Source: Pseudomonadota bacterium
GTDB lineage: Bacteria; Pseudomonadota; Alphaproteobacteria; Acetobacterales; Acetobacteraceae
DNA length: 64,000 nucleotides
Direction of reading: 5' to 3'
NCBI GenBank assembly: GCA_021816925.1
Contig: JAKAWQ010000011.1
Coordinates: 1 to 64,000, forward strand
A program made the position numbers and the translations under genes. How positions within the stretch are numbered: the stretch's first letter is position 1; the number at the start of each line of letters is the position of its first letter. The notes under the pieces were generated by a model. The model was not told the origin of the DNA. It saw nothing but the letters and a program-made list of their open reading frames with translations, and did not search any database. This document shows, piece by piece, positions 5,593 through 60,577 of the stretch.

Positions 5593-6249
5593 TCAAACAC
5601 CCCGATCGGCCTTGGACTCCGCTTTGCCCACGCTTCCCGCTCGCTCGGCACGTGCATCGGCGAGCTGGCGGCGCAACTCCGCTACCTCGGCCCGCAGTAT
5701 CCTCACCTCCTGGTCTGCCGAGTCCCCTTCGCGCGGGGCGTCCTGCGTGCCCGCCCCGGGCGGCCTGTAGAAGGGAGAAAAGAGGGTCATCGCGCGTTCC
5801 ATCTGGCGACCCATCTCCTCCATATTGAATGGAAAGAGGTTTCCCATCGTCTGTTGCATGGCCACCCGCATATCCTGCTGCTGGCGGGCAAAGCTCGCCA
5901 TTGCCTGCTCGAGGTAGCGTGGCACCAAGTTTTGCAGGGAGTCGCCATAAAAGGCGATGAGGTGCCGGAGGAAGCTCGTGGGCAGGAGCGCGCGACCCTT
6001 GTTTTCCTCTTCGACGATGATCTGGGTCAGGACGCTGCGCGTGATGTCCTCGCCGGTTTTCGCGTCGTAGACCACGAAATCCCGCCCGCCGCGCACCATT
6101 TCGGCCAGCGTGTCGAGAGTGATATAGCTCGAGCTTTCGGTATTGTACAAGCGCCGGTTGGCATACTTCTTCACCACCACGGGCGGCTCCGGCGCGCCTT
6201 CGGAAACGCTTGGTTCGTGCTCTGGGGTTTCTGGCATCTCTCTGTCCAT
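5593..6249 (-). CDS. phaR: Polyhydroxyalkanoate synthesis regulator PhaR
   Basis: DNA-binding repressor that also binds PHA granules and controls phasin and PHA genes. The N-terminal PHB/PHA accumulation regulator domain is clear (KKYANRRLYNTESSSYITL, then 'LAEMVRGGRDFVVYDAKTGE' and 'LTQIIVEEE', residues about 27-85), followed by the second accumulation-regulator domain (FLRHLIAFYGDSLQ...VPRYLEQAM) and a glutamine-rich helix. The C-terminal 35 residues form a charged coiled coil. 218 residues, a normal length. It is divergent from the phaC cluster, so it probably controls the shared 187-base promoter region and itself. Confidence 0.95.
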   Translation of the reverse strand: MDREMPETPEHEPSVSEGAPEPPVVVKKYANRRLYNTESSSYITLDTLAEMVRGGRDFVVYDAKTGEDITRSVLTQIIVEEENKGRALLPTSFLRHLIAFYGDSLQNLVPRYLEQAMASFARQQQDMRVAMQQTMGNLFPFNMEEMGRQMERAMTLFSPFYRPPGAGTQDAPREGDSADQEVRILRAEVAELRRQLADARAERAGSVGKAESKADRGV

Positions 6250-6436
6250 CCTCGACCTCGTCGGCGTGGTAGGGCCGATCCCGATCCGACGGGAGGGTAT
6301 CGGGTCATTCCATTAGCACGGGAATCGGCTCGTGGGTTCAGAACGGCGGTGCTTTTCGCGCCCGGCAGCCGAGCTCGATTGTTCCGCCGGCTGCCGCTTG
6401 CCGCTATGGTCTCGCCGCCCGGAGGAAGGATGACGA

Positions 6437-6889
6437 ATGACCGAGGCGTCGGCAGCGGACGCAGCGCCGTTCGCGGCCAGCGACGTCGAGGCGCTGGCGC
6501 GCGATTGGATCACTCTCTGGCAGAGCGAGTTGTCTTCGTTTGCCAGCGATCGAGAGGCCGCGGAGGCTTGGCTCCGGCTGCTCGCGCTTTGGGCCGGGGC
6601 GGCGACGAGCCTCCTCTCGGTCATTCCAGCCCCGCCTTCGCCCGATGCCCATGAACGGCCGGCCGGACGCACCGGGACCGCTCAGCCGCCGGGGGCCACG
6701 GCCGCTGCTTCTCCACCTGACGCTCGCGATGCTGCGCTCGAGCGCCTCGATCGCCGTCTCGCCCGGCTGGAGGAGCGGCTGGCAGCGCTCGAGCGAGCAA
6801 TTCACGGAGGCAGCCGCACGGCTGGCCGCGGCCTTGGGCCGGCCCGGCGGGCCGGACGAGGCGGCGTTCCGTCGCGCGGTCCAGGCTGA
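6437..6889 (+). CDS. Coiled-coil protein preceding phaC (possible PHA synthase partner)
   Basis: A 150-residue protein of unknown function. Its N-terminal third is an amphipathic helical region ('ARDWITLWQSELSSFASDRE...WLRLLALWAGAATSLLSVI'); a proline/alanine linker follows; then a strong heptad coiled coil ('LERLDRRLARLEERLAALER', about residues 100-120). The layout recalls small PhaE-like or PHA-synthase-associated proteins, which is an inference from form and position only. A good ribosome site (GGAGGAAGG at 6421-6429) precedes ATG 6437. The last 245 bases overlap phaC in another frame; the final 25 residues are glycine/arginine-rich and look like read-through over phaC codons. Confidence 0.65.
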   Translation: MTEASAADAAPFAASDVEALARDWITLWQSELSSFASDREAAEAWLRLLALWAGAATSLLSVIPAPPSPDAHERPAGRTGTAQPPGATAAASPPDARDAALERLDRRLARLEERLAALERAIHGGSRTAGRGLGPARRAGRGGVPSRGPG

Positions 6890-7886
6890 GGCACTGCAAC
6901 AGGACCGCGCCCTGATTGCCGGCATCGCCGCCTACCGGCGCCACCCCTTCAGACGCAATCTGCCCGATTCGCCCGCGCTTTGGGCGGAGGGCGAGACGCG
7001 CCTGCTCGATTACGGGACCGGCCGCAGGCGCGGCGCTCCGACGGTCCTGTTCGTACCAAGCCTCATCAACCGCGCATATGTATTGGATCTTACAGAACAA
7101 TCATCGATGTTGCGCTGGCTCGCCCGGGCTGGGATCCGCCCCCTCCTGCTCGACTGGGGCTGGCCCGGCAAGGCCGAGCGAAGCTTCACCCTCACGGACT
7201 ACGTCGCCGGCCGCCTCGAGCGTGCAATCGAGGCGGCGCCGCGCCGGCTGATACTCGCCGGCTACTGCATGGGCGGCCTGCTCGCATTGGCCGCGTCCCT
7301 GCGCCGGCCCGACCGCATCCGTGCGCTCGCCGTGCTCGCCGCACCTTGGGACTTCCACGCAAGCGGCGCCGAGACCGCAATCCTGCTCGGGCGCATGTTG
7401 CCGGCCCTCGAACCGGTGTTGGCCTTTAGCGCGAGCCTGCCGGTCGATCTCTTGCAGATGCTCTTTGCCGCCCTCGACCCGTTCGGAATCAGCGCCAAGT
7501 ATCGGGCTTTTGCCCGGCTCGATCCTTCCTCCGACCGCGCCCGCCTGTTCGTTGCGCTGGAAGACTGGCTGAATGACGGTATCCCCCTCGCGGCGCCCGT
7601 GGCGCGCGAGTGTCTCGGCGGCTGGTACGGCGCCAATACGCCCGGCCGTGCGGAATGGCGTATCGCCGGTCTGCCGGTCGATCCGCGCGACCTCCGCGTG
7701 CCCGCCTTCGTCGCGGTGCCGGGAAGGGACCGGATCGTACCGCCGCAAAGTGCCAGGCCGCTCGCGGATCTCATCCCGGCCGCAGTGCTGCATACGCCGG
7801 CCGCCGGCCATGTCGGCATGGTCGCCGGCTCCGGCGCCGAAACTGCGTTGTGGCGGCCGCTGCGCGACTGGGTGCTGAGCCTTTGA
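6645..7886 (+). CDS. phaC: PHA synthase (PhaC-like alpha/beta hydrolase)
   Basis: Polymerises 3-hydroxyacyl-CoA into polyhydroxyalkanoate at the granule surface. The PhaC lipase-like box is GYCMGG, with cysteine (about residue 208) as the nucleophile in place of serine; the catalytic Asp lies in PGRDRIVPP and the His in AAGHVGMV. 'PSLINRAYVLDL' and 'LLDWGWPGKAERSFTL' match the conserved PhaC core. At 413 residues from ATG 6645 it is shorter than class I synthases (about 590) and nearer class III. Start is uncertain: ATG 6645, 6651 or 6729 are in frame; the residues from 6645 on ('RPLLLHLTLAML') look like a genuine PhaC leader, so the first is preferred. phaA follows 57 bases later. Confidence 0.88.
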   Translation: MPMNGRPDAPGPLSRRGPRPLLLHLTLAMLRSSASIAVSPGWRSGWQRSSEQFTEAAARLAAALGRPGGPDEAAFRRAVQAEALQQDRALIAGIAAYRRHPFRRNLPDSPALWAEGETRLLDYGTGRRRGAPTVLFVPSLINRAYVLDLTEQSSMLRWLARAGIRPLLLDWGWPGKAERSFTLTDYVAGRLERAIEAAPRRLILAGYCMGGLLALAASLRRPDRIRALAVLAAPWDFHASGAETAILLGRMLPALEPVLAFSASLPVDLLQMLFAALDPFGISAKYRAFARLDPSSDRARLFVALEDWLNDGIPLAAPVARECLGGWYGANTPGRAEWRIAGLPVDPRDLRVPAFVAVPGRDRIVPPQSARPLADLIPAAVLHTPAAGHVGMVAGSGAETALWRPLRDWVLSL

Positions 7887-7943
7887 CCTCGCCCTCGCCG
7901 GCAGTAAGCTCATCTCCGCCACTCGGGAAGGGAGAGCCAAGCC

Positions 7944-9128
7944 ATGGTCGAACCCGGAGACGAGATCGTGATCGTCGGGGCCGCGCGCACGCCGGTCGGA
8001 AGCTTCAGCGGCGCCTTCGCCACCACACCCGCGCACCAGCTCGGAAGCATCGCGATCGGCGCGGCGCTGGAACGGGCGAAGCTCGAGCCGGGCGAGGCGG
8101 ACGAAGTGATCCTCGGGCAGATACTCACGGCAGGCCAGGGCATGAACCCGGTCCGCCAGGCTGCTCGCGCCGCCGGCATTCCGGATTCAAAGACGGCCTT
8201 CGGCATCAACCAGGTGTGCGGCTCGGGGCTGCGTGCGGTGGCGCTGGCGGCCCAGCAAATCGAGAGCGGGCAGAGCACGATCGTGATCGCCGGCGGACAA
8301 GAGAACATGACGCTCGCGCCGCACTGCGCTTACCTGCGCGCCTCCGTGAAGATGGGGGAGATGGCACTCACCGATACCATGTTGAAAGATGGCCTTTGGG
8401 ATGCCTTCCACGGCTACCACATGGGCACGACGGCCGATAACGTCGCCCGCGCCTATCAGATCACCCGCGAGGAGCAGGACAATTTCGCGCTCGCCTCGCA
8501 GCAGAAGGCATCGGCCGCCCAGAAGTCCGGCCGCTTCAAGGACGAGATTACGTCGGTGAGGGTGAAAACCCGCAAGGGGGACGTGGTCGTCGCCCATGAC
8601 GAGTACATTCGCCACGACGCGAACATCGATTCCATGGCGAAGCTCCGGCCTGCCTTCGGCAAGGAGGGCACGGTCACGGCCGGCAATGCCTCGGGGATCA
8701 ACGATGGGGCGGCGGCGCTGGTGATGATGAGCGCCAAGGAGGCTTCGCGGCGCGGCCTTGCGCCGCTCGCACGCATCGTTGCGTTCGCAACCGCCGGCGT
8801 CGATCCGGCCGTCATGGGCACCGGCCCGATTCCGGCCAGTCGCAAGGCGCTCGCCCGCGCCGGCTGGAAGATCACGGATCTCGACCTCATCGAGGCGAAC
8901 GAGGCGTTCGCCGCCCAGGCCTGCGCAGTCAACAAAGAGATGGGATGGGACACCGAAAAGGTGAATGTAAACGGCGGAGCGATCGCAATCGGCCATCCGA
9001 TCGGCGCGTCGGGGGCACGAATCCTGACCACGCTTCTCTTCGAGATGCAGCGCCGGAACGCCCATAAGGGATTGGCAACGCTCTGCATCGGCGGGGGCAT
9101 GGGCGTCGCCATGTGCGTCGAACGGTAG
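7944..9128 (+). CDS. phaA: Acetyl-CoA C-acetyltransferase (beta-ketothiolase)
   Basis: Condenses two acetyl-CoA to acetoacetyl-CoA, the first step of PHB synthesis, or runs the reverse thiolysis. All thiolase marks are present: the nucleophile cysteine in [12 protein letters not shown] (about residue 91), the [10 protein letters not shown] histidine motif, and the C-terminal [14 protein letters not shown] with the second catalytic cysteine. 394 residues is standard. Next to phaC on the same strand, preceded by GGGAAGGGAGAG, so probably co-transcribed. No phaB reductase gene is present in this window; it must lie elsewhere. Confidence 0.96.
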
Positions 9129-12203: not shown

Positions 12204-13193
12204 TCACCCGAGCAAGCCGGCTGCGCGGGCGCCGAGACCCGCGCCCGGCCTGGCTCCGAGATGTGCAATCACCTCGGCCGCCGCAAGGCTGCCGAGGCGG
12301 CCGGCGAGGGCGAGATCGCGCCCGGCCATGTAGGCGTGCAGAAAGCCGGCCGCGTAGGCGTCTCCGGCTCCGGTGGTGTCCACGACCCGGGTGGGCCACG
12401 CGGCGATCGGGATCGTTTCGGTGCCGGCCACGATCACGCTGCCGGCCTCGCTTCGCGTGAGCGCGGCGAGGGGAACTTCGGCCCGCGCGCGCTCGGCCGC
12501 GGCTTCGAATGCTTCTTCCTCATAGAGGCTGCAGACCTCGGCCTCGTTCGCGAACAGGAGATCGACCGATTCGCGGACGAAGGCGCGGAAGGAAGCGCGG
12601 TGCCGGTCCACGCAGAACGGGTCCGAAAGCGAGAGCGCGACCTTCCGCCCCGCCTCCTTCGCAACCATTGCAGCGCGGTGAAAGGCGGCTTTGGCGGCGG
12701 GTGGATCGAACAGGTAGCCCTCGAGATAGACAATGCCCGACGCGGCGATGACCGCAGAGTCGAGATCCTCCGGCGCGAACGCGATCGAGGCGCCAAGAAA
12801 CGTATTCAGCGTGCGCTGGCCGTCCGGGGTCACCGCAACGATGCAGGTGGCGGTGGGCGTGCCGTTCAGGAGCGGCGCGGTCGGGAAGTGCACGCCGCCG
12901 GCGGTGATGTCCTCTCGGAAACGCCGTCCGAGCCGATCCTCAGCCACCTTGCCGAGAAAAGCGACGCGGCTGCCGAGAGCGGCTGCAACCGAGCACGTAT
13001 TTGCCGCTGAGCCGCCGCTGGTCTCGCGCGGCTCGGGTAGCGAGGCGGTGAGGCGTTCGGCGGTCGCTTCATCGCAAAGGCGCATCGCGCCCTTGTGCAT
13101 ATCGTGTCGTGACAAAAACGACTCCGGCACGCGCGCCAGTTGATCGACGATGGCGTTGCCGATGCCCAGGATTTCGAAGCGCGGTGGTGTCAT
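12204..13193 (-). CDS. PfkB-family sugar/adenosine kinase
   Basis: Ribokinase-superfamily kinase. The N-terminal signature 'GGSAANTCSVAAALG' and the C-terminal catalytic signature DTTGAGDAYAAGFLHA, whose Asp is the base and GAGD the anion hole, are both intact. The 'LGIGNAIVDQLARV' opening and 329-residue length are like alphaproteobacterial enzymes annotated as adenosine kinase; substrate cannot be fixed from sequence. Located 11 bases upstream of typA in the same direction. The start ATG at 13193 faces a 298-base divergent region shared with the bactofilin gene. Confidence 0.9.
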   Translation of the reverse strand: MTPPRFEILGIGNAIVDQLARVPESFLSRHDMHKGAMRLCDEATAERLTASLPEPRETSGGSAANTCSVAAALGSRVAFLGKVAEDRLGRRFREDITAGGVHFPTAPLLNGTPTATCIVAVTPDGQRTLNTFLGASIAFAPEDLDSAVIAASGIVYLEGYLFDPPAAKAAFHRAAMVAKEAGRKVALSLSDPFCVDRHRASFRAFVRESVDLLFANEAEVCSLYEEEAFEAAAERARAEVPLAALTRSEAGSVIVAGTETIPIAAWPTRVVDTTGAGDAYAAGFLHAYMAGRDLALAGRLGSLAAAEVIAHLGARPGAGLGARAAGLLG

Positions 13194-14739: not shown

Positions 14740-15642
14740 ATGGAGACCGCAGCCGTCGCCGCCGCAGACCGGGCAGCGCGCTTCTGGACCTTCGGGACGA
14801 AAGGTCCGTTGCGGCCGGGGGACGACGCCCACAAGGCGATGTTCAGCCGTATGCTCCTCGAAACCTTCAATCCCTACAAGCCGGCGGTGATCGACTGGCC
14901 CGACCTCGACCCGGAGGCCAAGGCCCGGCTGACCGGCCTTCCTATCTGGGACATTGCCGTGCAGACCGAGGGCCGGGCGCGGCTGCGCATGCTGAGCTAT
15001 GCCCGCACGGTCGCCGACCCGCTGGTACGCCAGGCGCTCGAGCTGAACGGCTGGGAGGAGGGCCGACACAAGGAGGTGCTGGCCCGGCTGGTTGCCTTCT
15101 ATGGCATCACGCTTGAGCCGGAGCCCGAATACGTGGAACCAAAGGATCCCGAGTGGTCCTACCTCGTCACGGCATACGGCGAGTGCATCGACAGCTTTTT
15201 CGCGTTCGGCCTGTTCGAGGCGGCGCGGCGTTCCGGGTTCTTTCCCCCCGAGCTGGTCGAGACCTTCGAACCGGTGATCCAGGAGGAGGCCCGGCATATC
15301 CTGTTCTTCGTGAACTGGCTGGCCTGGCATAAGCAGATGATGCCACTCTGGCGACGACCCTGGTTCTTCTTCCGCACGATCGGGGTGTGGGCACTCCTGA
15401 TCGGCGAGCGGTTCAACATCGCCAAGGACGTGAGTTCGGGCGAGACCGGTTCGAAGCAGGACGCGAATTTCACGCTGACCGGCGCCGACACTCTCGGCAG
15501 GAATATGGGCACGCGGGAGCTGCTGGAGATCTGCCTCGCCGAGAACGACCGGCGCATGGCGGGATATGATCCGCGCCTCTTGCGTCCGACGACGGTGCCG
15601 CGCCTGGCGCGGTTCGCCCGCCGTTTCCTCCGCCGCGGCTGA
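14740..15642 (+). CDS. Ferritin-like di-iron protein
   Basis: A 300-residue, mostly helical cytosolic protein. It has a full four-helix di-iron ligand pattern: E77, then E107-x-x-H110 (in EEGRHKE), E148 (in YGECID), and E183-x-x-H186 (in QEEARHIL), with 30- and 35-residue spacings as in ferritin-like oxidases and oxygenases. It is too long for a storage ferritin. Substrate is unknown. AGGAG at 14729-14733 points to ATG 14740; a GTG six bases earlier is less likely. It lies 73 bases upstream of a giant flavin/iron-sulfur reductase, which may supply its electrons. Confidence 0.8.
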   Translation: METAAVAAADRAARFWTFGTKGPLRPGDDAHKAMFSRMLLETFNPYKPAVIDWPDLDPEAKARLTGLPIWDIAVQTEGRARLRMLSYARTVADPLVRQALELNGWEEGRHKEVLARLVAFYGITLEPEPEYVEPKDPEWSYLVTAYGECIDSFFAFGLFEAARRSGFFPPELVETFEPVIQEEARHILFFVNWLAWHKQMMPLWRRPWFFFRTIGVWALLIGERFNIAKDVSSGETGSKQDANFTLTGADTLGRNMGTRELLEICLAENDRRMAGYDPRLLRPTTVPRLARFARRFLRRG

Positions 15643-15715
15643 TCGGAACCGCTGCCGCGGAGGGTTGCGGCATGTGCATGGCCGTGGCATCCGCTCGGCA
15701 CCATCTGCTGGCGTG

Positions 15716-18700
15716 ATGACCCGTATGGATGCTTTGCCCCTGGGCTTCGGATTCGGTTTTGCCGATCTCTCGGAGAGCGAGGGGCTAGTCCGGCTCGACC
15801 GGCAATTCCTGCTCGCTCTTGCCGCGGCCGCCCCCGAGGTGCACGCGGCGCTGCTCAAGGCGCGGGCGGCACCGGAGAGGCTCGCGGCCCGGGAAGAAAG
15901 CGAACTCCTGATCGGGCTCGGCCCGCATCTCGAGGTTTTCCTCGGCCGGCTCTTCGGCATCCAGGCGGAGCTTGCGGGCATTGCCGCGGCCACGCGGGCG
16001 CTCGATCCCGTTCATGCGTGCCGCCGGCTGTTCGTGCAGCGCCAGGCAGTGAGAAAATACCCGGAACCCAAGGATTTCGACGGGCCGGAGCTTCGCCGCC
16101 GGCTCGAAGAGGTGATGGGGGAGGATTTCGGCGAGGCTGCCTTCGCCCTGCATGTGGCACGCTGGGAGGAAGCGGGCGCGGCCGAGCCGCTTGACCTTGC
16201 GCTGCGCTATGCCGCCTGGGCGAGCCTCACCGAAGAGGGCCGGGCTCAGCACCACGGGGGGATCCTGTTCCGTGTGCCGGCCCGGGTCGAGCCCACGCAC
16301 CTTCTTCCGCTCGAAACGGTCGAGCGCGACGGGGTGACCATGCTGGCGCTGCCCGATGCGCTGCATCGCCTGCGCGAGGGCTTCTCTCTCACCGACGCCG
16401 GAATGTCGAGCGCCGAAGCGCTGGCCGAGATGCACTACTGCATCTGGTGCCATCACCAGGGCAAGGACAGTTGCAGCAAGGGCCTTGCCGATCGCAAGGC
16501 GGGCGGATTCCAGCGCTCCGCACTCGGCGTCACGCTCGCCGGCTGCCCGCTCGAGGAGCGGGTCAGCGAGATGCACGAGCTGCGTGCCGAAGGCTGCCTG
16601 CTCGGCGCCTTTGCCACGATCATCGTCGATAATCCGATGCTGGCGGCGACCGGGCATCGCATCTGCAACGACTGCATGAAGGCGTGCATCTACCAGAAGC
16701 AGCAGCCGGTCGATATTCCGCAGGCCGAGACCTCGATCCTGCGCGATGTTCTGGCGCTCCCGTGGGGTTTTGAGATTTACGACCTTTTGGTGCGCTGGAA
16801 TCCGCTCGACGTTCGCCGGCCGCTACCGAGGCCGGAGAGCGGGCGGAGCGTGCTCGTGGTCGGGCTCGGTCCGGCCGGGTTCACGCTCGCACATCACCTG
16901 CTGAACGAGGGCCATGCGGTCGTGGCGATCGACGGGCTCAAGATCGAGCCGCTCGGCTTCGACCCGCGCCAGCCGGTGCGCGAGGCAGCGCGCCTGTTCG
17001 AGGATCTCGACGATCGCGTGATGGCCGGCTTCGGCGGTGTGGCCGAGTACGGGATCACCGTCCGGTGGAACAAGAACTACCTCAAGCTCATCCGCCTGCT
17101 GCTCGAGCGGCGCGCCGGGTTCGCGACCTTCGGCGGCGTGCGCTTCGGCGGCGGCGGCACGCTCGACATCGACCGCGCGCTGGCGATGGGGTTCGACCAC
17201 GTGGCACTTTGTCTCGGCGCCGGCCGGCCGACCGTACTCGACATACCGGGCGGTCTGGCGCGCGGCGTGCGCGAGGCATCCGACTTCCTGATGGCGCTGC
17301 AGCTCACGGGGGCGGCGAAGAGATCCTCGATCGCCAATCTTGAGCTGCGCCTGCCGGTGGTGGTGATCGGCGGTGGCCTGACTGCGATCGACACCGCGAC
17401 CGAGAGTCTTGCCTACTATGTCCGGCAGGTGGAGAAATTTGCCGCACGCTGGCGGACACTTGCGGGCGAACGGGGCGAGGCGATGCTCCGCGCGCAGCTC
17501 GGCGAGGAGGAGAGAGCTCTCGCCTTGGAGTTCCTCAGCCATGCTGCGGCGATCGAGGATGAGCGCCGAACGGCCTTGCGCGAGAACCGGCCGGCGCGAT
17601 TGGGTCCGCTGCTCGATCGCTGGGGCGGAGCCACCATCGCCTACCGCCGCCGGCTGATCGATTCGCCCTCGTACACCCTGAACCATGAGGAGGTGGGCAA
17701 GGCGCTCGAGGAAGGCGTGAGGTTTGCAGAGAACCTCGTGCCGCTGGCGATCGAGACCGACCACTTCGGCCACGCCGAATCGGTTCGCTTCCGCAATGCG
17801 GAGGGCGGCGAGACGAGGCTTGCCGCCGGCGCGGTGCTGGTGGCGGCGGGCACCTCTCCGAACACGGTGCTGGCGAGGGAGGATGCACGAATCCGGCTCG
17901 ACGGCCGCTTCTTCCAGGCGATCGACGAGAGGGGAGAGAGGATCGCGCTTCGGCGCGGAGAGACCAAGCCCGAGCGCGCGCGCGTGCTGATGCACCGCGC
18001 CGCGGACGGCCGGTTTCTCAGCTTCTTCGGGGATCTGCATCCCAACTTCGCGGGCAATGTCGTCAAGGCAATGGCCAGCGCCAAGCGCGGCTACCCGGTA
18101 ATTTCCGCCTGCCTTACGGCGCGGGAGGCGGCGTCCTCGCCGGCGGCGATTCTCGCTGCTGCGCGGCGGGATCTCAGCGCGACTGTGCACGCGGTCCAGC
18201 GGCTCGCGCCGCGCATCGTCGAGGTGATCGTGCACGCCCCGGCAGCGGCGCTTGCCTTCCGGCCGGGGCAATTCTTCCGCCTCCAGAATTATGAGCGGCA
18301 CGCAGCGCGCCTGAACGAGCCCGGGCACGGGCTGACCGTGCTGGCGATGGAGGGGCTCGCGATGACCGGCGCCGCGGCGGATCCCGAGGCCGGGCTGGTT
18401 TCGGTGATCGTGCTCGAGATGGGTGGCAGCTCCGATCTCGCGGCGCTGCTCAGGCCGGGCGAACCGGTGGTGCTGATGGGTCCGACGGGCACACCGACGG
18501 AAATCCCCGCCGGGCGGACCCTTGCGCTTGCCGGCGGCGGGCTCGGCAACGCAGTGCTGTTCTCGATCGGGCGCGCAGCACGGGCGGCCGGAACGCGCGT
18601 GCTCTATTTCGCCGGCTACCGCGAACGTGCCGATCGCTACAAGGCGGCGGAGATCGAGCGGGCGGCCGATGTTGTCGTCTGGTGCTGCGAGGAGGCACCC

Positions 18701-19183
18701 GGATTTCCGACCAACCCGGAGCGGGCGCAGGATCGGAGCTTCGTCGGCACCATCACCGCCGGCATGGCGGCCTACGCAGAGGGAACGCTCGGCCCGCAGG
18801 CGATCCGCCTCGACGAGGTGGATCATCTGATCGCGATCGGCTCGGATCGTATGATGCAGGCGGTGGCCGAAGCGCGGCGTGGCAACCTCGCGCGACTCTT
18901 CAAGCCCGACCATACCGCGATCGGCTCGATCAACAGCCCGATGCAATGCATGATGAAGGAAGTCTGCGCGCAGTGCCTGCAGCCGCAACGGGACCCGGTC
19001 AGCGGCGAACGAAGTGTCGTGTTCAGCTGCTTCAATCAGGACCAGTGTCTTGAGCAGGTGGATTTCGACGCCTTGGCCGAACGCCTGGGACAGAACAGCC
19101 TGGCCGAAAAGACGAGCGCGCTCTGGATCGATCGCGCGCTGCAGCGGTTGAACGCGCGCGCGATGTCGCAGGCGCGGCGCTGA
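15716..19183 (+). CDS. Large multidomain FAD/Fe-S oxidoreductase (GltD-like plus PyrK/FNR-like)
   Basis: A 1155-residue electron-transfer enzyme. Residues 1-235: helical region without recognised domain. Cysteine clusters C242-x2-C245-x6-C252 and C317-x2-C320-x3-C324 probably hold Fe-S centres. About 379-790: glutamate-synthase-small-subunit-like two-dinucleotide-binding fold, with FAD site 'VLVVGLGPAGFTLAHHL' and NAD(P) site 'VVVIGGGLTAIDTATES'. About 815-1120: ferredoxin-reductase-like domain ('FRPGQFFRLQNYE', 'LALAGGGLGNAV') ending in a PyrK-type cysteine set C1078, C1084, C1087, C1105. It likely passes electrons between NAD(P)H and a protein partner; neighbour di-iron protein is the natural candidate. 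Start ATG 15716 is the first in-frame ATG after the upstream stop; no strong ribosome site seen. Confidence 0.85.
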   Translation: MTRMDALPLGFGFGFADLSESEGLVRLDRQFLLALAAAAPEVHAALLKARAAPERLAAREESELLIGLGPHLEVFLGRLFGIQAELAGIAAATRALDPVHACRRLFVQRQAVRKYPEPKDFDGPELRRRLEEVMGEDFGEAAFALHVARWEEAGAAEPLDLALRYAAWASLTEEGRAQHHGGILFRVPARVEPTHLLPLETVERDGVTMLALPDALHRLREGFSLTDAGMSSAEALAEMHYCIWCHHQGKDSCSKGLADRKAGGFQRSALGVTLAGCPLEERVSEMHELRAEGCLLGAFATIIVDNPMLAATGHRICNDCMKACIYQKQQPVDIPQAETSILRDVLALPWGFEIYDLLVRWNPLDVRRPLPRPESGRSVLVVGLGPAGFTLAHHLLNEGHAVVAIDGLKIEPLGFDPRQPVREAARLFEDLDDRVMAGFGGVAEYGITVRWNKNYLKLIRLLLERRAGFATFGGVRFGGGGTLDIDRALAMGFDHVALCLGAGRPTVLDIPGGLARGVREASDFLMALQLTGAAKRSSIANLELRLPVVVIGGGLTAIDTATESLAYYVRQVEKFAARWRTLAGERGEAMLRAQLGEEERALALEFLSHAAAIEDERRTALRENRPARLGPLLDRWGGATIAYRRRLIDSPSYTLNHEEVGKALEEGVRFAENLVPLAIETDHFGHAESVRFRNAEGGETRLAAGAVLVAAGTSPNTVLAREDARIRLDGRFFQAIDERGERIALRRGETKPERARVLMHRAADGRFLSFFGDLHPNFAGNVVKAMASAKRGYPVISACLTAREAASSPAAILAAARRDLSATVHAVQRLAPRIVEVIVHAPAAALAFRPGQFFRLQNYERHAARLNEPGHGLTVLAMEGLAMTGAAADPEAGLVSVIVLEMGGSSDLAALLRPGEPVVLMGPTGTPTEIPAGRTLALAGGGLGNAVLFSIGRAARAAGTRVLYFAGYRERADRYKAAEIERAADVVVWCCEEAPGFPTNPERAQDRSFVGTITAGMAAYAEGTLGPQAIRLDEVDHLIAIGSDRMMQAVAEARRGNLARLFKPDHTAIGSINSPMQCMMKEVCAQCLQPQRDPVSGERSVVFSCFNQDQCLEQVDFDALAERLGQNSLAEKTSALWIDRALQRLNARAMSQARR

Positions 19184-19236: not shown

Positions 19237-19905
19237 ATGCGGCTTCTCTATCACCTTCCGCTTTCCCCCTTTTCACGCAAAGTACGTCTCGTGCTGGCCG
19301 AGAAGCGCCTGCCGTTCGAATTGAGGCTGGAGAGGGCCTGGGAACGGCGCGCCGAGTATCTCGATCTCAATCCGACCGGGCTTGTGCCGACGCTTGTCGA
19401 GGAAGGCGGGTTCGTGATCCCGGATTCGGGCGTGATCTGCGAGTATCTTGAGGAGGCCTATCCGGACACGCGGCTCTTGGGCAAGACGCCGGCCGAGCGG
19501 GTCGAGGTGCGGCGGCTGGTCGCTTGGTTCGACGGCAAGTTCGCCGCAGAGGTGACGCGCAACCTGCTCGGCGAGAAATTCATGAAACAACTGGCGGGCC
19601 GGGGTCAGCCGGATGCCAGCGCGATCAGGGTCGGCTATGCCCAGCTTCGCGAGCATCTGAAGTATCTCGGCTGGCTTGCCGAGAACCGGAAATGGCTGGC
19701 CGGTCCGATGCTTTCGCTCGCCGACTTCGCCGCGGCGGGGCACCTTTCCGCGCTCGATTTCGCGGGCGACGTTGATTGGTCGGTCGCGCCGGCCGCGCGG
19801 GAGTGGTACGCACGCATGAAGTCGCGCCCGAGTTTCCGCGGCGTGCTGGCGGATCGCGTGCCGGGGGTGACCCCGCCGCCGCATTACGCGGACCTCGATT
19901 TCTAA
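19237..19905 (+). CDS. Glutathione S-transferase family protein
   Basis: 222-residue soluble GST. The N-terminal thioredoxin fold carries 'LPLSPFSRKVRLVLAEKRL' with the catalytic-region Ser/Pro, the cis-proline in 'TGLVPTLVEE' and the glutathione gamma-glutamyl site 'PDSGVICEYLEE'. The helical C-terminal domain has the 'LADFAAAGHLSALDF' motif. Substrate not predictable. It follows the large oxidoreductase by 53 bases and abuts the TTG start of the next gene, so an operon is likely. Confidence 0.93.
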   Translation: MRLLYHLPLSPFSRKVRLVLAEKRLPFELRLERAWERRAEYLDLNPTGLVPTLVEEGGFVIPDSGVICEYLEEAYPDTRLLGKTPAERVEVRRLVAWFDGKFAAEVTRNLLGEKFMKQLAGRGQPDASAIRVGYAQLREHLKYLGWLAENRKWLAGPMLSLADFAAAGHLSALDFAGDVDWSVAPAAREWYARMKSRPSFRGVLADRVPGVTPPPHYADLDF

Positions 19906-53480: not shown

Positions 53481-55469
53481 TCAGACGGAGCAGTCGATCG
53501 CCTCCGCCACCTCTGCGATCGCAGCCTCGATCGCCGCGCCCTCGTAGGGTCCCGGCCCGCCTGCGTGCAACGCGCGATAGACCGCGCCTTCGGCAAAGCG
53601 GCGGACACCTGCGGGAAGCGTGGGCAGCCAGGCGGAAATGCGTTCCGCCGCCTCGCCGTGCACGCGCTCCCACTCGCTGCGCGCGAGGCCGAGATCGAAT
53701 CCCTTCCCCCGCGCGGGCATTTGCGCGCGCAAGGCGGCCGTTGCCACTTCGTCCACGTCATCGCCGGCGAGCACGACGCCATAGATCTCGCGCGCACGGG
53801 CCGGAGAAATCAGCCCGGCCGCGACGTCGGCAGCAACGAGCAGAGCATCGCGCGCTGTGGGATCGCCATAGCCCCCTCCCCCGCCGCTCCAGAGGCGGAT
53901 CACCTCACCGAGCTCCGGCCTATAAACCGTCTGCTTGCCGATCTCGTGCGGCGCCAATCCCGGGCGCAGTCCCGTGTTGCCGCTGACCGCGGCGGCGCCG
54001 CCGCCGGCTGCGCCCCAGGCCGCCATGCGATGGCGATCCTTGCCGCGCATCACGACGACCGCACTCGGATGGCGTATCTCCAGTTCGTATTGTACGCCGA
54101 AGCCGCCGCGCAATTTCCCTGGCCCCTCACTGTCCGGATTGAGGTCGAAGCGGCGCACGACAACCGGCGCCTCGGTTTCCAGCACCTCGACCGGCACGTT
54201 GCGCAGGAACGCAACCGTAAGATCGGTGCCGGAGACGCCATCGCGCTCGGCACTTCCGCCGGAGCCGCCCGAGACCGGGTTCGCGACAACGACGCGGCCG
54301 CGCTCGCCGAGCTCGGACGTAGAGATGTATGTCACCACGAGATTGCTCGCCCCGCTCACCGGCACGCGGTCGGGCATCGCCTGCGTCAGTGCGCCGAGCA
54401 CAAGATCGTGGATGCGCATCGCCGTCGTGTAGCGCATGCCGCAGGCGGCGGGGAACGCGGCATTCACGACCGAGGCGTCCGGGAGCACGAGGTCAATGCA
54501 GCGCAAGATGCCGGCGTTGATGTGGATCGCCTCAGAGTGTGTGACGACGAAATTGATAAGCGCGATGGAAAGGAACGGATGGTGGCGCATGCCGCCTGTG
54601 GGAAGATTGAGGGCGGCACGCACCTGCGGATCGGAGCCGCGGAAATCGAGTTCGACGCTGCCGTTCTCCCCGGGCGTCACGGCAACCGCGAGGCGGACGG
54701 GCAGATCGCTCACGTAGTCGTCTTCGAAGTACTCGATGAACCGCCAGGTGCCGCGCGGAATCGTGCCGAGCACGCCGCGGGCGATCCGCTCGGTCCGGTC
54801 GAGCGTGGCCCCGATCGCAGCCGTAACGGCCGCAAACCCGTAACGCTCTGCGAGTCTCGCAAGCCTCTGCTCGGCGCGCGCGAGCGCCGCTGTGCAGGCA
54901 CTGATATCGCCCCAATTCAGCGCGGGAATGCGACAATTGTCGGCGAAGATCGTCCAGAGCTCCTGGTTGAGCTCGCCCTTGCGGTAAAGCCGGACGGGGC
55001 GAAGGCGCAGGCCCTCCTGGAACACCTCGTTGTTCTGCATGTCGATGCTGCCGGGTGCGTAGCCCCCGACATCGGTGCAGTGGATGAAGGTCCAGGCGAA
55101 GCAGAGCAGCCGCGCACCCGCGAAGACGGGGCGGAAGAGGTAGATGTCGTTGAGGTGCATCACCATCCCGCCCGTGCTGTAGGGGTCGTTGGTGATCAGC
55201 ACGTCGCCCGGCGCCCAGTCCCTGACCGCTTTCGTTCCCGCGTGCATGGGCACGCCCATCAGCGGCGTCGCCCCGCTGCCATAGGGATAGGCGAACACCT
55301 CGCCTTCGAGCGAGACGAGCGAGACGCCGAAATCCTGCGTCTCCTTGACAAACGTGGTGTGCGAGGAGCGCAGCACGATCCACGCCATTTCGTCCGCCAC
55401 TGCCTTGAAGAGATTGGCGAAGATCTCGACCTCAACGGCCTCCTTCGCGGCCGGCTCACGCTCCAGCAT
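53481..55469 (-). CDS. Hydantoinase/oxoprolinase subunit B (first copy)
   Basis: HyuB-type subunit of an ATP-dependent hydantoinase, oxoprolinase or acetophenone-carboxylase-like enzyme. 662 residues from ATG 55469. Family marks: 'VEIFANLFKAVADEMAWIVLRSS', 'GDVLITNDPYSTGGMVMHLNDI', 'FAWTFIHCTDVGGYAPGSID', and the glycine-rich end 'GSGGSAERDG', 'LWSGGGGGYGDP'. Its ATG overlaps the stop of the partner hyuA by one base (TGATG). Substrate cannot be predicted. Confidence 0.92.
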   Translation of the reverse strand: MLEREPAAKEAVEVEIFANLFKAVADEMAWIVLRSSHTTFVKETQDFGVSLVSLEGEVFAYPYGSGATPLMGVPMHAGTKAVRDWAPGDVLITNDPYSTGGMVMHLNDIYLFRPVFAGARLLCFAWTFIHCTDVGGYAPGSIDMQNNEVFQEGLRLRPVRLYRKGELNQELWTIFADNCRIPALNWGDISACTAALARAEQRLARLAERYGFAAVTAAIGATLDRTERIARGVLGTIPRGTWRFIEYFEDDYVSDLPVRLAVAVTPGENGSVELDFRGSDPQVRAALNLPTGGMRHHPFLSIALINFVVTHSEAIHINAGILRCIDLVLPDASVVNAAFPAACGMRYTTAMRIHDLVLGALTQAMPDRVPVSGASNLVVTYISTSELGERGRVVVANPVSGGSGGSAERDGVSGTDLTVAFLRNVPVEVLETEAPVVVRRFDLNPDSEGPGKLRGGFGVQYELEIRHPSAVVVMRGKDRHRMAAWGAAGGGAAAVSGNTGLRPGLAPHEIGKQTVYRPELGEVIRLWSGGGGGYGDPTARDALLVAADVAAGLISPARAREIYGVVLAGDDVDEVATAALRAQMPARGKGFDLGLARSEWERVHGEAAERISAWLPTLPAGVRRFAEGAVYRALHAGGPGPYEGAAIEAAIAEVAEAIDCSV

Positions 55470-57556
55470 CAGCCTCTTTCCCCTGTTCTTTCCAGCGCCA
55501 GCGCGCCTGAGATGAGGACGTGCGCCTGCCAGTCGGGCGGGATCAGCGTCGTGGTGTCGAGCTGATCGACGATCGCGGGGCCGGCGAGGATTGTATCGAG
55601 GGTCAATGCTTCGCGTTCGTGCACCGAGGCCGTTATTTCGTGACCGTTCAACCGAAGCGTTCGGCGACCCGGCGGGGGCGCGGCCGCGGCGGTGGCGGGC
55701 GGAACGGATTCCGGAGGTTTCGGAACGCGGCCGGTGACGTGCGCGCGCAGTTCCTTGAGCCAAGCCTTCGCCTCTTCGTTCGCATGACCGTAGGCAGTGC
55801 GATGCGCGGCGGCGAAGGCCCCGAGGATCGCCGCGTTGTCCCCCTTTTCGAGCCAAGCGGCGTCGAGCGGCACGGTAACGTCGTAGCCCTGCCCGTCGTA
55901 GCGCATCTCGGCGGATAGCAGGATCTCGCTGCGATCAACCGTGATGCCGCGCGCCTGCTCGGCGATCCAGGCGCGTGCCTCGGCGCTCAGGTCGTGGTGC
56001 AGGCGCGCGAGTTCGCCAACGTCGAGGCTGTCGGCGCGTCGATAGACGGGCGTCACGATATCGCCCTCGAGATCCGCGCGCGCGGCGCCGAGCGCGGAGA
56101 GCCCGCCCGGGAACCGCGGGATCAGGATCTGATCGATCGCGATCTCCTCGGCGAGGAGTGCGGCGACAAGCGGGCCGGCGCCGCCGAAGGCGACCATGCG
56201 GAAGCGCGGCGCATCGACGCCGCGGCGTGCGAGCACGTTCGAGGCCTCGGCCGCCATCAGGGCGACGGCGACGCGGATCGCGCCGTCCGCCACTTCTTCG
56301 GCCGTCCAGCCGAGCCGTGCGCCGATCGTGTCGAGCGCGCGCCGCGCAGGTTCTGGCTGGAGCGGCAGTTTGCCTCCGAGCTTCTGGCCAGGGGCGAGGA
56401 AGCCCGCGACCAGGAAGGCATCCGTGAGCGCCGGCACGAGCGAACCGCGCGTGCCGTAGCAGGCCGGCCCGGGATCCGCACCGACGCTGCGCGGCCCCAC
56501 CTTCAACGTACCGGCGGAATCGAGCCAGAGGATCGAACCGCCGCCCGCGCCGATCGAGGAGACGGCGATGGTCGGGATCAGGACGGGAAATTCCGCGATG
56601 TGCTCTTCGGAGCTCAGGATCGGCTTGCCCTCGCGGATGACGCCGATATCGGCGCTTGTGCCGCCGACATCAAGCGTCATGAGGTCGGCCGCCTGCCACC
56701 CGGCGTCCGCCGCCTCCGCGGCCGCCCCGCTTACGCCGGCGGCAGGCCCGGAGAGCAGTGCCACCACCGGATGGCGACGCATGCTGAATGCGAGTTCGGC
56801 GCCGCCGTTCGAGCGCGCGATCATCGGCTGGGTGGCAATGCCGCGCCCGGCGAGACCGCCGGCGAGGCGATCAAGGTAGGATTCGACGATGCCGCGCACG
56901 CTCGCGTTGATCGCACCGAGGACGCCGCGTTCGTACTCGCGTGCCTGTGGCCAGACCTCGCTCGAAAGCTCGACGCGGAGCGGCAGGCCCGCCGCCTCGA
57001 TCGCCAAGCGCGCGGCGCGTTCGTGCGCGGGATTGCGATAGCTGTGCAGCAGCACGAGCACCAAAATCTCGACGCCCCTGGCAGCGAGTGCCCGTCCCGC
57101 TTCCACCGCGCCTGCTTCATCGAGCGGCTCGAGCTCGTGCCCGTCCGCGCCGAGCCGACCGCGGACCTCACGCACCAGCGCGCGCGGCACGAGCGGGAGG
57201 GGCCGGCGCGAGTCCGAGCGCATCGGGTGCGGCACCGCAAGTCGCTGCAACTCGAAGAGATCACGGAACCCGGCAGTGACGATGAGCCCGACGCGGGCGC
57301 CCTTGCGCTCGATCAGCGCGTTGGTCGCGACGGTGGAGCTGTGCGCGTGCAGGATCGTGCGCCAGGAAACGCGGTTCGCCGCGGGTGCTGCGCCGGACGC
57401 AGCGAGCAGCTCGTCGATGCCTGCGAGCACCCCGGCACCGGGCTCGGCCGGCACGCTCGGCACTTTGATGCAACGCATTCCGCCTGCTGCGTCGATATGG
57501 ACGAGATCGGTGAATGTGCCGCCCACGTCGGTGCCGAGGCTCGAAACCTGCGTCAC
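55469..57556 (-). CDS. Hydantoinase/oxoprolinase subunit A (first copy)
   Basis: HyuA-type subunit with an ASKHA-like ATPase fold: 'GTDVGGTFTDLVHIDAAGG' near the N-terminus, 'AHSSTVATNALIERKGARVG', 'LLSGPAAGVSGAA', 'TLDVGGTSADIGVIREG' and 'GAGGGSILWLDSAG'. Works with the downstream subunit B in the same operon to open a cyclic amide or carboxylate a substrate with ATP. 695 residues, normal; GTG start. Paralogue of the plus-strand copy at 58.5 kb. Confidence 0.93.
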   Translation of the reverse strand: MTQVSSLGTDVGGTFTDLVHIDAAGGMRCIKVPSVPAEPGAGVLAGIDELLAASGAAPAANRVSWRTILHAHSSTVATNALIERKGARVGLIVTAGFRDLFELQRLAVPHPMRSDSRRPLPLVPRALVREVRGRLGADGHELEPLDEAGAVEAGRALAARGVEILVLVLLHSYRNPAHERAARLAIEAAGLPLRVELSSEVWPQAREYERGVLGAINASVRGIVESYLDRLAGGLAGRGIATQPMIARSNGGAELAFSMRRHPVVALLSGPAAGVSGAAAEAADAGWQAADLMTLDVGGTSADIGVIREGKPILSSEEHIAEFPVLIPTIAVSSIGAGGGSILWLDSAGTLKVGPRSVGADPGPACYGTRGSLVPALTDAFLVAGFLAPGQKLGGKLPLQPEPARRALDTIGARLGWTAEEVADGAIRVAVALMAAEASNVLARRGVDAPRFRMVAFGGAGPLVAALLAEEIAIDQILIPRFPGGLSALGAARADLEGDIVTPVYRRADSLDVGELARLHHDLSAEARAWIAEQARGITVDRSEILLSAEMRYDGQGYDVTVPLDAAWLEKGDNAAILGAFAAAHRTAYGHANEEAKAWLKELRAHVTGRVPKPPESVPPATAAAAPPPGRRTLRLNGHEITASVHEREALTLDTILAGPAIVDQLDTTTLIPPDWQAHVLISGALALERTGERG

Positions 57557-58492: not shown

Positions 58493-60577
58493 ATGACCCA
58501 GCCGGAGCCTGCGCCGGGCGCCCTGCCCTGCGCTCCTATCGCCGCCGGTGTCGATATCGGCGGCACGTTCACCGACATCGTCTGCGATCGTCCCGGAGCA
58601 CCGCCCTTCATCCTGAAGCTGCCGACGACCCGGGAGGATCCTGCGCGGGCCGTGATCGAGGCGGTTGAACGTCTCGAGCGCGAGGCCGAGGTCACGCCCG
58701 GCACGATCACGCGCTTCCTGCATGGAACGACGATCGCGACCAATGCGATTCTCGAGCGCAAGGGCGCGAAGATCGGGCTGATCACGAGCGCAGGGTTTCG
58801 CGACGTGCTGGAGATCGGCGCGCAGCTTCGCCCCGCGCTCTATCGCGTCATCCTCGAGCCCGTCACGCCGGGCTTCCTCGCGCCCGGGCATCTCCGGCGC
58901 GAGGTCACGGAACAACGCGGTGCAGACGGCCGCGTGATCGTTCCGCTGGACGAGGAAGGGGTGGCGCGCGCTGCCGATGATCTTGCCGCGTTCGGCGTCG
59001 CCGCGATCGCAGTCGTGTTCCTGTTCTCCTTTCTCGATCCGGCGCACGAGCGGCGCGCGCGAGAGATCATTCTTGCACGGCATCCCGACCTCATGGTCTC
59101 GCTCTCCTCGGATGTTGACCGCGCCTTCCGTGAGTACGAGCGCACCGTCGCGACCGCGTTCGATGCCACCATGAAGCCGGTGGTCGATCGGTATCTCGGA
59201 CGCCTGGAGGATGGCCTTGCCGCTGCCGGTATCGGTGCGCCGCTCATGGTCATGCAGTCGCGCGGCGGGCTTGCCGGTGCCACGGTCGCACGGCGACGGC
59301 CGGTCCGGCTCTTTCTCTCCGGCCCGGCCGCCGGGGTGATCGGCGCAGCCGCCGTAGGCCGTTCCGCCGGCGAGATGGATCTGATCAGCATCGACGTCGG
59401 CGGCACTTCGAGCGACATCGCGCTGATCGAAGGCGGCGAGCCGGTGATCCGCGCCGAGGGTACGATCGCCGGCTTTCCCGTTCGCGCGCCGATGGTGGAC
59501 CTGAACACGATCGGCGCAGGCGGAGGCAGCATCGCCTGGATCGACGAGGCGGGCGGCCTGCGCGTCGGGCCGCACTCCGCCGGCGCGGAACCCGGTCCGG
59601 CGGCCTACGGGCGCGGCGGGCAGGAGGCGACGGTGACGGACGCCTCGATCGTGCTCGGTTATCTCGATCCCAGGTTCTTCGCCGGCGGGCTCTTGCCGCT
59701 TGACCCTGGCCGCGCGGAGGCGGCAATCGAGCAGCGGATCGCCCGCCCGCTCGGGCTTTCGGTCGAGGAAGCGGCGCTTGGCATTCATCGCGTGGTGAAT
59801 GCGGCGATGGTCGAGGGGATCCGGCTCGTCTCGATCCGCCGCGGCTTCGATCCGCGCCGCTTCACGCTCGTGGCGTTGGGCGGCGCCGGGCCGATCCACG
59901 CGGCGGCACTGGCAGCGGAGCTTGGCATCGGCAAGATTCTGGTTCCGCGGCATCCGGGCGTACTCTCGGCGGCGGGGCTGCTGGCGGCACCTGTCGAGCA
60001 CGAGGTCTCCGCCGCGTTTCATCGCCCGCGCGTCGAGGCGTCGCAGAGGGAGGTGCGGGACGCGCTTGCCGATCTTGACCGCACCGCGGCCGCACTGATG
60101 GCGCTCGAGAAGATCGATCCCGCCACGGTCGTCATCCGCTACTTCGCCGACATGTGGTATATTGGCCAGTCGTACTCCATCGCCGTGCCGCTCGATCCGG
60201 ACGGCGCGGATCCTCTGGCGCGGCTGCACGCGGATTTTCTTGCGCTGCATGACCGCATTTACGGCCATTGCATGGAGGCGCGGGTTGCGATCGTCAATCT
60301 GCGCGCCGTGCACCGCGCGGGCGGGAGCGCGATACCACAGGGGAATTCGGTCTTGGCGGAAGCGCCGGCCTTGGCAGAGCGCGTGGCGCGATTCGAGTCC
60401 GGCGCCGCGATGACGGCGATCCATCTTCGCGATGCGCTCGCTCCCGGAATGCTGCTCGCGGGTGCGGCGATTGTCGAGCAGGCGGATACGACGACGCTCA
60501 TTCCGCCCGGATGGCAGGCAGAGGTGCGGGCGGATGCGAGCCTGATGCTGCGGCCGGCGATGGGAGCAGGCACATGA
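58493..60577 (+). CDS. Hydantoinase/oxoprolinase subunit A (second copy)
   Basis: HyuA-type ATPase subunit, 694 residues. 'AGVDIGGTFTDIVCDRPG', 'HGTTIATNAILERKGAKIGLIT', 'LFLSGPAAGVIGAAAVG', 'SIDVGGTSSDIALIEGG' and 'TIGAGGGSIAWIDEAGG' are the family motifs. It is clearly a distant paralogue, not a recent duplicate, of the copy at 55.5-57.6 kb. The stop overlaps the subunit B start (ATGA). Preceded by a candidate operator dyad. Confidence 0.94.
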   Translation: MTQPEPAPGALPCAPIAAGVDIGGTFTDIVCDRPGAPPFILKLPTTREDPARAVIEAVERLEREAEVTPGTITRFLHGTTIATNAILERKGAKIGLITSAGFRDVLEIGAQLRPALYRVILEPVTPGFLAPGHLRREVTEQRGADGRVIVPLDEEGVARAADDLAAFGVAAIAVVFLFSFLDPAHERRAREIILARHPDLMVSLSSDVDRAFREYERTVATAFDATMKPVVDRYLGRLEDGLAAAGIGAPLMVMQSRGGLAGATVARRRPVRLFLSGPAAGVIGAAAVGRSAGEMDLISIDVGGTSSDIALIEGGEPVIRAEGTIAGFPVRAPMVDLNTIGAGGGSIAWIDEAGGLRVGPHSAGAEPGPAAYGRGGQEATVTDASIVLGYLDPRFFAGGLLPLDPGRAEAAIEQRIARPLGLSVEEAALGIHRVVNAAMVEGIRLVSIRRGFDPRRFTLVALGGAGPIHAAALAAELGIGKILVPRHPGVLSAAGLLAAPVEHEVSAAFHRPRVEASQREVRDALADLDRTAAALMALEKIDPATVVIRYFADMWYIGQSYSIAVPLDPDGADPLARLHADFLALHDRIYGHCMEARVAIVNLRAVHRAGGSAIPQGNSVLAEAPALAERVARFESGAAMTAIHLRDALAPGMLLAGAAIVEQADTTTLIPPGWQAEVRADASLMLRPAMGAGT

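Follow-up and report, generated by a model that had tools for sequence, protein, structure and literature searches.

A ferritin-like di-iron protein family linked to hopanoid synthesis in Acetobacteraceae and other bacteria, and its separation from a neighbouring Fe-S flavoprotein

We analysed a window of 64,000 nucleotides from a bacterium of the Acetobacteraceae (contig JAKAWQ010000011.1 of assembly GCA_021816925.1) in which the gene for a predicted di-iron protein, P0001, is followed by the gene for a giant Fe-S flavoprotein, P0002. We found that P0001 belongs to a family that occurs almost only in bacteria able to make hopanoids, bacterial lipids that resemble sterols, where its presence is associated with HpnJ and where it lies inside hopanoid (hpn) gene clusters in several lineages. 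A role for this family in hopanoid synthesis is likely. On balance, we lean towards an account in which P0001 is a di-iron hopanoid enzyme of a type that we call A, which hydroxylates the side chain to give pentols, and in which P0002 is a separate redox protein. The initial annotation of this DNA had instead joined P0001 and P0002 as a di-iron oxygenase and its electron supplier.

P0001 is predicted to be a conserved di-iron-carboxylate protein of an unnamed family

Codon usage and homology revealed that P0001 and P0002 are both real genes, arranged as initially described with a gap of 73 bases between them (15643-15715; Table 1). The translation of P0001 contains the putative di-iron ligands E77, E107xxH110, E148 and E183xxH186, and these six residues are invariant in 21/21 aligned family members and in 115/115 homologous segments of more than 150 residues taken from 97 loci. 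Profile searches did not assign P0001 to a family: no Pfam cut-off was reached (the top match was Rubrerythrin, E 0.17, with 12.7 vs 22.8 bits), no NCBIfam family, hpn models included, matched at E up to 1, and phmmer against PDB sequences returned two non-significant matches only (E 1.5 and 2.3). Across the 21 family members, weak Pfam matches at E up to 0.1 were to Rubrerythrin in 10, AurF in 9 and Ferritin_2 in 6.

An AlphaFold2 model of P0001 (predicted local distance difference test, pLDDT, 87.8; predicted template modelling score, pTM, 0.86) is a helical bundle of the R2/ferritin type. Foldseek gave this model no match at or below E 0.001 (best 7e-3), and the top neighbours in VIA-align were R2 and R2lox (Z 14.8, root-mean-square deviation (rmsd) 3.5, 225 aligned; Z 14.6, rmsd 3.9, 211 aligned). 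Because Z values of 14-15 lie near the background for helical bundles, the ligand pattern bears most of the weight for the di-iron assignment, and we regard the modelled fold as moderate evidence. P0001 appears to resemble R2/R2lox (NrdB/NrdF and the R2-like ligand-binding oxidase) at the superfamily level only: the ferritin-like fold and the E, ExxH, E, ExxH set are shared, but identity is only 6-18%. The AurF/VlmB di-iron N-oxygenases are similar in the same sense (best AurF match E 0.0074; VlmB Z 13.6), but the matches are sub-threshold and the P0001 family is linked to hopanoid genes. By its ligand set and its ferritin-like model, P0001 is thus predicted to be a conserved di-iron-carboxylate protein of an unnamed family. 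No membrane-spanning stretch was found in it (best 19-residue hydropathy 1.14).

A diverged second copy, which we call B, is 31-37% identical to P0001 and is present in 18 of the 97 loci. In 16 of these, B is the 3' partner and shares its strand with A; the order is reversed in one locus, and the two lie 13 kb apart in another. In 6/16 tandem loci A and B share one frame with no stop; L095, L097, L101, L103 and L160 are close fusions in single open reading frames (ORFs), and L166 has a gap of 133 bases between the two parts. Among the P0001-bearing genomes of the window's family, 19/73 carry B, and B never occurs without A. The A-B fusions suggest that the A and B proteins work together.

The P0001 family occurs almost only in bacteria able to make hopanoids

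We searched four overlapping samples, namely 289 genomes of the window's class, 259 of its phylum, 140 of its family and 28 named P0001-bearing genomes, and scored squalene-hopene cyclase by TIGR01507. In the class sample, the cyclase was present in 17/18 genomes with a strong P0001 match against a background of 76/289 (Fisher 4.6e-10). A weak nineteenth match (G230, E 8.7e-4, no cyclase) was left out; its inclusion gives 17/19 (p 3.5e-9). The cyclase was likewise present in 7/7 P0001 genomes of the phylum sample (34/259 overall) and in 27/28 of the named genomes. In the window's family, where 124/140 genomes carry the cyclase, it was found in 72/73 genomes with P0001 vs 52/67 without (one-sided p 6e-5).

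The association extends to HpnJ, which was found in 69/73 P0001 genomes of the family vs 39/67 others (p 1.8e-7), and among cyclase-bearing family genomes it was found in 68/72 with P0001 vs 38/52 without (p 0.001). The cyclase is therefore nearly necessary but not sufficient for P0001, as would be expected if P0001 were an optional tailoring gene.

P0001 homologues reside in hpn clusters of several bacterial families

The best 80 of at least 571 stretches encoding P0001 relatives in named genomes came from Acetobacteraceae, Burkholderia and its relatives, Dyella, Nevskia, Inquilinus and metagenome-assembled genomes (MAGs). Genes of the hpn set were found in the fetched flanks of 27/80 of these loci and of 4/16 class loci, vs 0/20 control loci around P0002 homologues, and residence in hpn clusters spans several bacterial families. 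In Dyella kyungheensis, HpnI-HpnJ-HpnK-HpnL-P0001 lie on one strand, with P0001 20 bases past HpnL and with HpnA and others further on. In G498, P0001 lies between HpnL and HpnJ in an hpn cluster; this genome was placed as a sphingomonad by its SecA, which shares 74.3% identity with that of Sphingomonas parapaucimobilis and 51.1% with the next genus. P0001 thus resembles the hpnA-hpnR genes in position, between HpnL and either HpnA or HpnJ. Within that set HpnP and HpnR are radical-SAM (S-adenosylmethionine) methylases (PMC12583986), from which P0001 differs as a predicted di-iron protein.

P0001 was absent from four cyclase-bearing genomes of Methylobacterium: G283, identified by 96.1% identity to Methylobacterium bullatum across 99% of a 15 kb stretch, and three with the same genus label (G421, G429 and G444). 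Placement by 16S rRNA gave a match in 4/26 genomes only and was uninformative for the hopanoid question, and near-DNA searches with the G140 hpn region and with G323 gave no genus-level placement. Neighbouring genes were called by codon usage rather than from plain ORF lists, in which antisense frames predominated, and NCBIfam was used to verify the identities that matter most. The neighbour lists are incomplete because this caller missed some genes of the window, such as a sugar-kinase-like ORF at 12204-13193.

Burkholderia P0001 loci lie outside the hpn cluster, 3' of a flavin-reductase-like gene (13 loci; FMN_red at 1.8e-24 in the one locus checked), whose product is a possible electron donor for the P0001 homologue there. 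In Burkholderia loci including L105, L114, L122, L135, L150 and L157, an FMN_red-type gene and a gene for a 72-residue uncharacterised protein stand just 5' of the P0001 homologue.

Two further loci deserve mention in their own right. In L156, a record titled 'Mycobacterium sp. KBS0706', the P0001 gene is 86.7% identical over 896 bases to Inquilinus limosus, and the assembly is probably mislabelled or mixed. In the family genome G655 (C1:1480861-1481727), the P0001 homologue has one in-frame TGA and the HpnJ match also holds stops, possibly the trace of a decaying pathway.

The distribution of hopanoid types and a proposed side-chain hydroxylation

According to a 2025 survey (PMC12583986), no genes are yet known for bacteriohopanepentol and bacteriohopanehexol, nor for the ring desaturation of hopanoids, where a 'sterol desaturase' is an imperfect candidate. 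In Table 3 of that survey, 6/8 hopanoid makers among the Sphingomonadales contain pentol plus hexol (15-90%), and unsaturated hopanoids are at 0% in seven and 1% in one. Acetobacteraceae show pentols in 9/10 and unsaturation in 8/10 entries, Hyphomicrobiales show neither trait except for 1% values in one species and an unsaturated Afipia, and Methylobacterium has 0 pentol plus hexol and 0 unsaturated. Burkholderia cenocepacia, which has P0001 (L109), is reported to make a pentol cyclitol ether (PMC8560942). Set against the record of pentol and hexol production, the presence of P0001 fits in part: it agrees for Acetobacteraceae, for the single sphingomonad, for Methylobacterium and for B. cenocepacia, but not for Roseomonas pecuniae (see below). 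The occurrence of P0001 in a sphingomonad hpn cluster, together with its absence from cyclase-bearing Methylobacterium, favours a role in pentol/hexol formation. We propose that P0001 is an O2-dependent side-chain hydroxylase, given that sphingomonads contain pentols and almost no unsaturated hopanoids. A search of the open-licence literature found no paper naming a di-iron or ferritin-like hopanoid gene, which does not by itself establish absence from print.

Under this proposal, P0001 would work at the surface of the membrane, where it would bind a hopanoid whose extended side chain is a polyol, activate O2 at its di-iron site and hydroxylate the side-chain CH2 adjoining the polyol, so that bacteriohopanetetrol types would be converted to pentols; A with its B paralogue, in tandem or fused, would perhaps yield hexols. 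A reductase, either general or local, would supply the electrons. The lack of a membrane-spanning stretch fits a surface enzyme that acts on a polar side chain. We infer all three of these elements, namely that P0001 is an oxygenase, that it hydroxylates the side chain and that a general or local reductase serves it. More tentatively, the family may be the missing O2-dependent di-iron C-H hydroxylase, with A leading to pentols and A plus B to hexols; hopanoid synthesis would then have its first di-iron-carboxylate enzymes, and pentol-type biomarkers would have a genetic marker. Hopanoids from soils, lakes and rocks are used to trace bacteria and the conditions in which they lived, and if P0001 uses O2, the hopanoids that it forms would be tied to oxygen.

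Several observations weigh against this proposal. The co-occurrence statistics ignore relatedness between genomes, and three P0001-bearing genomes lack a match to the cyclase, two of them incomplete (G127 at 74% and G571 at 87%) and the third being Acidisphaera rubrifaciens (G293). P0001 is present in only 72/124 cyclase-bearing genomes of the family, though pentols are widespread among the Acetobacteraceae of Table 3 (PMC12583986). The window's own genome has its cyclase and HpnJ on contigs C106 and C108 and P0001 on C126, and G498 is the only genome placed as a sphingomonad. The authors of the survey inspected the surroundings of hpn clusters for pentol genes and named no candidate. Roseomonas (Muricoccus) pecuniae DSM 25622, which has P0001 in an hpn region (L102), is a misfit, as Table 3 gives it 0% pentol, 0% unsaturated and a single hopanoid at 0.1 mg/g. 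Gluconacetobacter loci contain both A and B, and G. diazotrophicus has only 6% pentol plus hexol and 49% unsaturated hopanoids in the same table. Finally, B. cenocepacia is reported to make both pentol and unsaturated hopanoids (PMC8560942) and so does not decide between a hydroxylase and a desaturase.

A ring desaturase is an unlikely alternative reading of the same data: the di-iron oxidant would take two hydrogens off the hopane rings, with no oxygen added, to give delta-6 hopanoids (delta-11 for B), and the link between P0001 and hopanoids would hold equally. The neighbours of P0001, however, include HpnI, HpnJ and HpnK (NCBIfam names), which act on the hopanoid side chain. Gluconacetobacter and B. 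cenocepacia are both known for unsaturated hopanoids (PMC12583986, PMC8560942), and the desaturation genes also await assignment (PMC12583986), which would suit a desaturase; yet P0001 sits in a sphingomonad hpn cluster while Sphingomonadales reach only 0-1% unsaturated hopanoids (PMC12583986). P0001 also has no membrane-spanning stretch, whereas the desaturases put forward so far in the literature are embedded in the membrane (PMC6460317). These belong to the 'sterol desaturase' (fatty acid hydroxylase) family and include hpnX; they are similar to P0001 in their proposed O2-dependent modification of hopanoids (PMC12583986, PMC6460317) but differ in having ca. 260 residues, a membrane-integral form and His-rich motifs (PMC6460317), where P0001 is a predicted ferritin-like carboxylate protein. 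The conserved di-iron family, present in several proteobacterial lineages, offers one gene to delete for both the pentol/hexol and the ring-double-bond question.

We judge it no more probable that P0001 acts on hopanoids in some other way, by another oxidation, an isomerisation or a step towards cyclitol-ether or composite hopanoids. The association with HpnJ beyond that with the cyclase, and the position of P0001 beside HpnI-J-K-L, are consistent with such a role, but P0001 occurs in four family genomes without an HpnJ match (G535, G539, G632 and G637) and is missing from 39/108 family genomes that bear HpnJ. Side-chain hydroxylation remains the reading that we prefer.

P0001 and P0002 do not form a general partnership

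That P0001 and P0002 form one oxygenase-reductase system, as first annotated, is now very unlikely. The two genes lie on the same strand 73 bases apart, an order shared by three genomes of a single genus and by the MAG locus L092, and P0002 does hold the parts of an electron supplier. Across genomes, however, co-occurrence did not exceed chance. With P0002 scored as present at E up to 1e-60, the class sample contained P0002 in 68 genomes, a strong P0001 in 18 and both in 7 (G000, G037, G066, G076, G127, G165 and G263), the two being adjacent in the window only (7/18 vs 68/289, one-sided p 0.10). A strong P0001 was absent from 61/68 of the class genomes with P0002, a distribution that had been named beforehand as evidence against the pairing. 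The other observation so named, variation of the ligand residues among di-iron homologues, was not made, as the ligands are invariant. In the window's family, P0001 was found in 73 genomes, P0002 in 52 and both in 22, and the relation was if anything negative: P0002 was present in 22/73 P0001-bearing genomes vs 30/67 others (two-sided p 0.08), and the negative direction persisted among cyclase-bearing genomes (two-sided p 0.02).

Adjacency was confined to one lineage. The adjacent pairs in the family were those of the window, G589 and G663, all of genus g1; G593 carries P0001 and P0002 on one contig 1.35 Mb apart. Among P0001 loci read, many with short flanks, P0002 stood beside P0001 in 1/96, namely L092, an Acetobacteraceae MAG with the gene order of the window. 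P0002 homologues follow cys genes in 11/59 loci and CtaA in 20/59. Because the reductase mostly occurs without P0001 and positive co-occurrence was not observed, we reject the pairing as a general rule. P0001 differs in this respect from two-component di-iron monooxygenases with a dedicated reductase, as the reductase gene is not conserved alongside it. The adjacency is most likely an accident of gene order in one lineage, although it may reflect a local, recently acquired partnership there.

Least probable of all for P0001 is a role other than catalysis on lipids, in iron handling or peroxide defence, kept by the same aerobic lineages as hopanoids: the weak Rubrerythrin and Ferritin_2 matches among family members would suit it, but several lineages have P0001 within an hpn cluster, and the 20 control loci showed no hpn gene around them.

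P0002 resembles a single-chain Nfn-like flavoprotein found near sulfate-assimilation genes

The initial annotation had described P0002 as a flavin/Fe-S reductase with a GltD-like module and a PyrK-type FNR domain, and a protein with Fe-S, FAD and NAD(P)H sites is what our searches support. Eleven Cys residues are invariant across 20 aligned homologues (C242, C245, C253, C277, C317, C320, C324, C1078, C1084, C1087 and C1105) and fall in a GltD/NfnL-like and a PyrK/NfnS-like part (Table 1). In Pfam, Pyr_redox_2 matched above its cut-off (1e-12) and Fer4_20 below its own (2e-4). One of the 20 homologues, L075 from the 1.4 Mb genome G111, is diverged (1023 residues, 40% identical), and in the alignment its FNR part is missing a large share of the NAD-binding end.

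Table 1. Positions of P0001, P0002 and the predicted parts of P0002 in the window
Feature	Position	Strand	Description
P0001	14740-15642	+	300 amino acids (aa); predicted ferritin-like di-iron-carboxylate protein, A type; hopanoid-co-occurring family
P0002	15716-19183	+	1155 aa; single-chain NfnL-NfnS-like Fe-S flavoprotein, PRK06567-related
P0002 residues 1-180	15716-16255	+	Helical N-terminal domain common to PRK06567 relatives
P0002 residues 187-805	16274-18130	+	NfnL/GltD/DPD-like; 7 invariant Cys (C242 to C324), FAD and NAD(P)H folds, helical insert ~555-635
P0002 residues 816-1141	18161-19138	+	NfnS/PyrK-like FNR; 4 invariant Cys (C1078, C1084, C1087, C1105)

Residues 9-950 of P0002 align with the NCBIfam model PRK06567 (NF005128) at E 3.8e-224, the score of 746.8 bits falling short of the model's curated cut-off (1072). 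The N-terminal 235 residues, in which no domain had been recognised at first, are therefore covered by this model from residue 9 and are conserved in homologues; what stands of that claim is that residues 1-180 have no domain name or function in our searches, in which the structure comparisons barely probed this part and its fold was not searched alone. PRK06567 is named 'putative bifunctional glutamate synthase subunit beta/2-polyprenylphenol hydroxylase', but P0002 falls below its equivalog cut-off and the name is an annotation, not an experimentally based function. We accordingly set aside glutamate synthase subunit and polyprenylphenol hydroxylase as identities for P0002, as they come only from the name of the model.

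In the predicted structure (pLDDT 85.2), residues 187-802 matched 5jfc_L (Z 24.6, rmsd 2.6, 432 aligned) and residues 816-1141 matched 4yry_C (Z 14.0, rmsd 2.5, 259 aligned). These best structural matches place both subunit folds of NfnAB/NfnSL, the NADH-dependent ferredoxin:NADP oxidoreductase, in P0002. Nfn-type enzymes call for Cys that bind two [4Fe-4S] clusters and one [2Fe-2S] cluster, and the 7 and 4 invariant Cys of P0002 would be the candidates for such ligands. P0002 differs in that a single chain holds both folds, with a helical domain added at the N terminus and a helical insert, and the likeness, drawn from model and sequence, does not imply bifurcation.

We examined the neighbourhoods of P0002 homologues at 59 class loci, excluding the window and eight genomes with fragments or very short contigs. 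The sulfate-assimilation genes noted above were always upstream on the same strand (examples are L064, L071, L074, L192 and L209) and comprised sulfite/nitrite reductase type hemoproteins, CysG, CysH, CysD and CysN/C. The gene for the heme A synthase CtaA was upstream and divergent in 19 of its loci and lay beyond the cys genes in 5. From these arrangements we infer that ctaA / cys / P0002 may be the ancestral order. A probable role of P0002 is to supply electrons to ferredoxin or to sulfite reductase. No cys gene was seen in 48/59 loci, and P0002 is also retained by relatives with small genomes, in which sulfate reduction may be missing. A search of the open-licence literature found no paper linking PRK06567 with sulfite reductase, a result that leaves its absence from print as a whole unestablished. 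With the pairing thus corrected, the giant reductase belongs elsewhere, and sulfate assimilation is the best lead.

Other genes in the window

Positions 19237-19905 encode an FzlA-like FtsZ-binding protein (NF050814, 297.4 bits vs a cut-off of 300) that carries the Pfam label GST only. By eye, 5593-9128 holds a polyhydroxybutyrate group with a PhaR-like regulator and a thiolase, and two divergent gene pairs at 53484-57556 and 58493-62256 resemble hydantoinase subunits of the HyuA/HyuB type.

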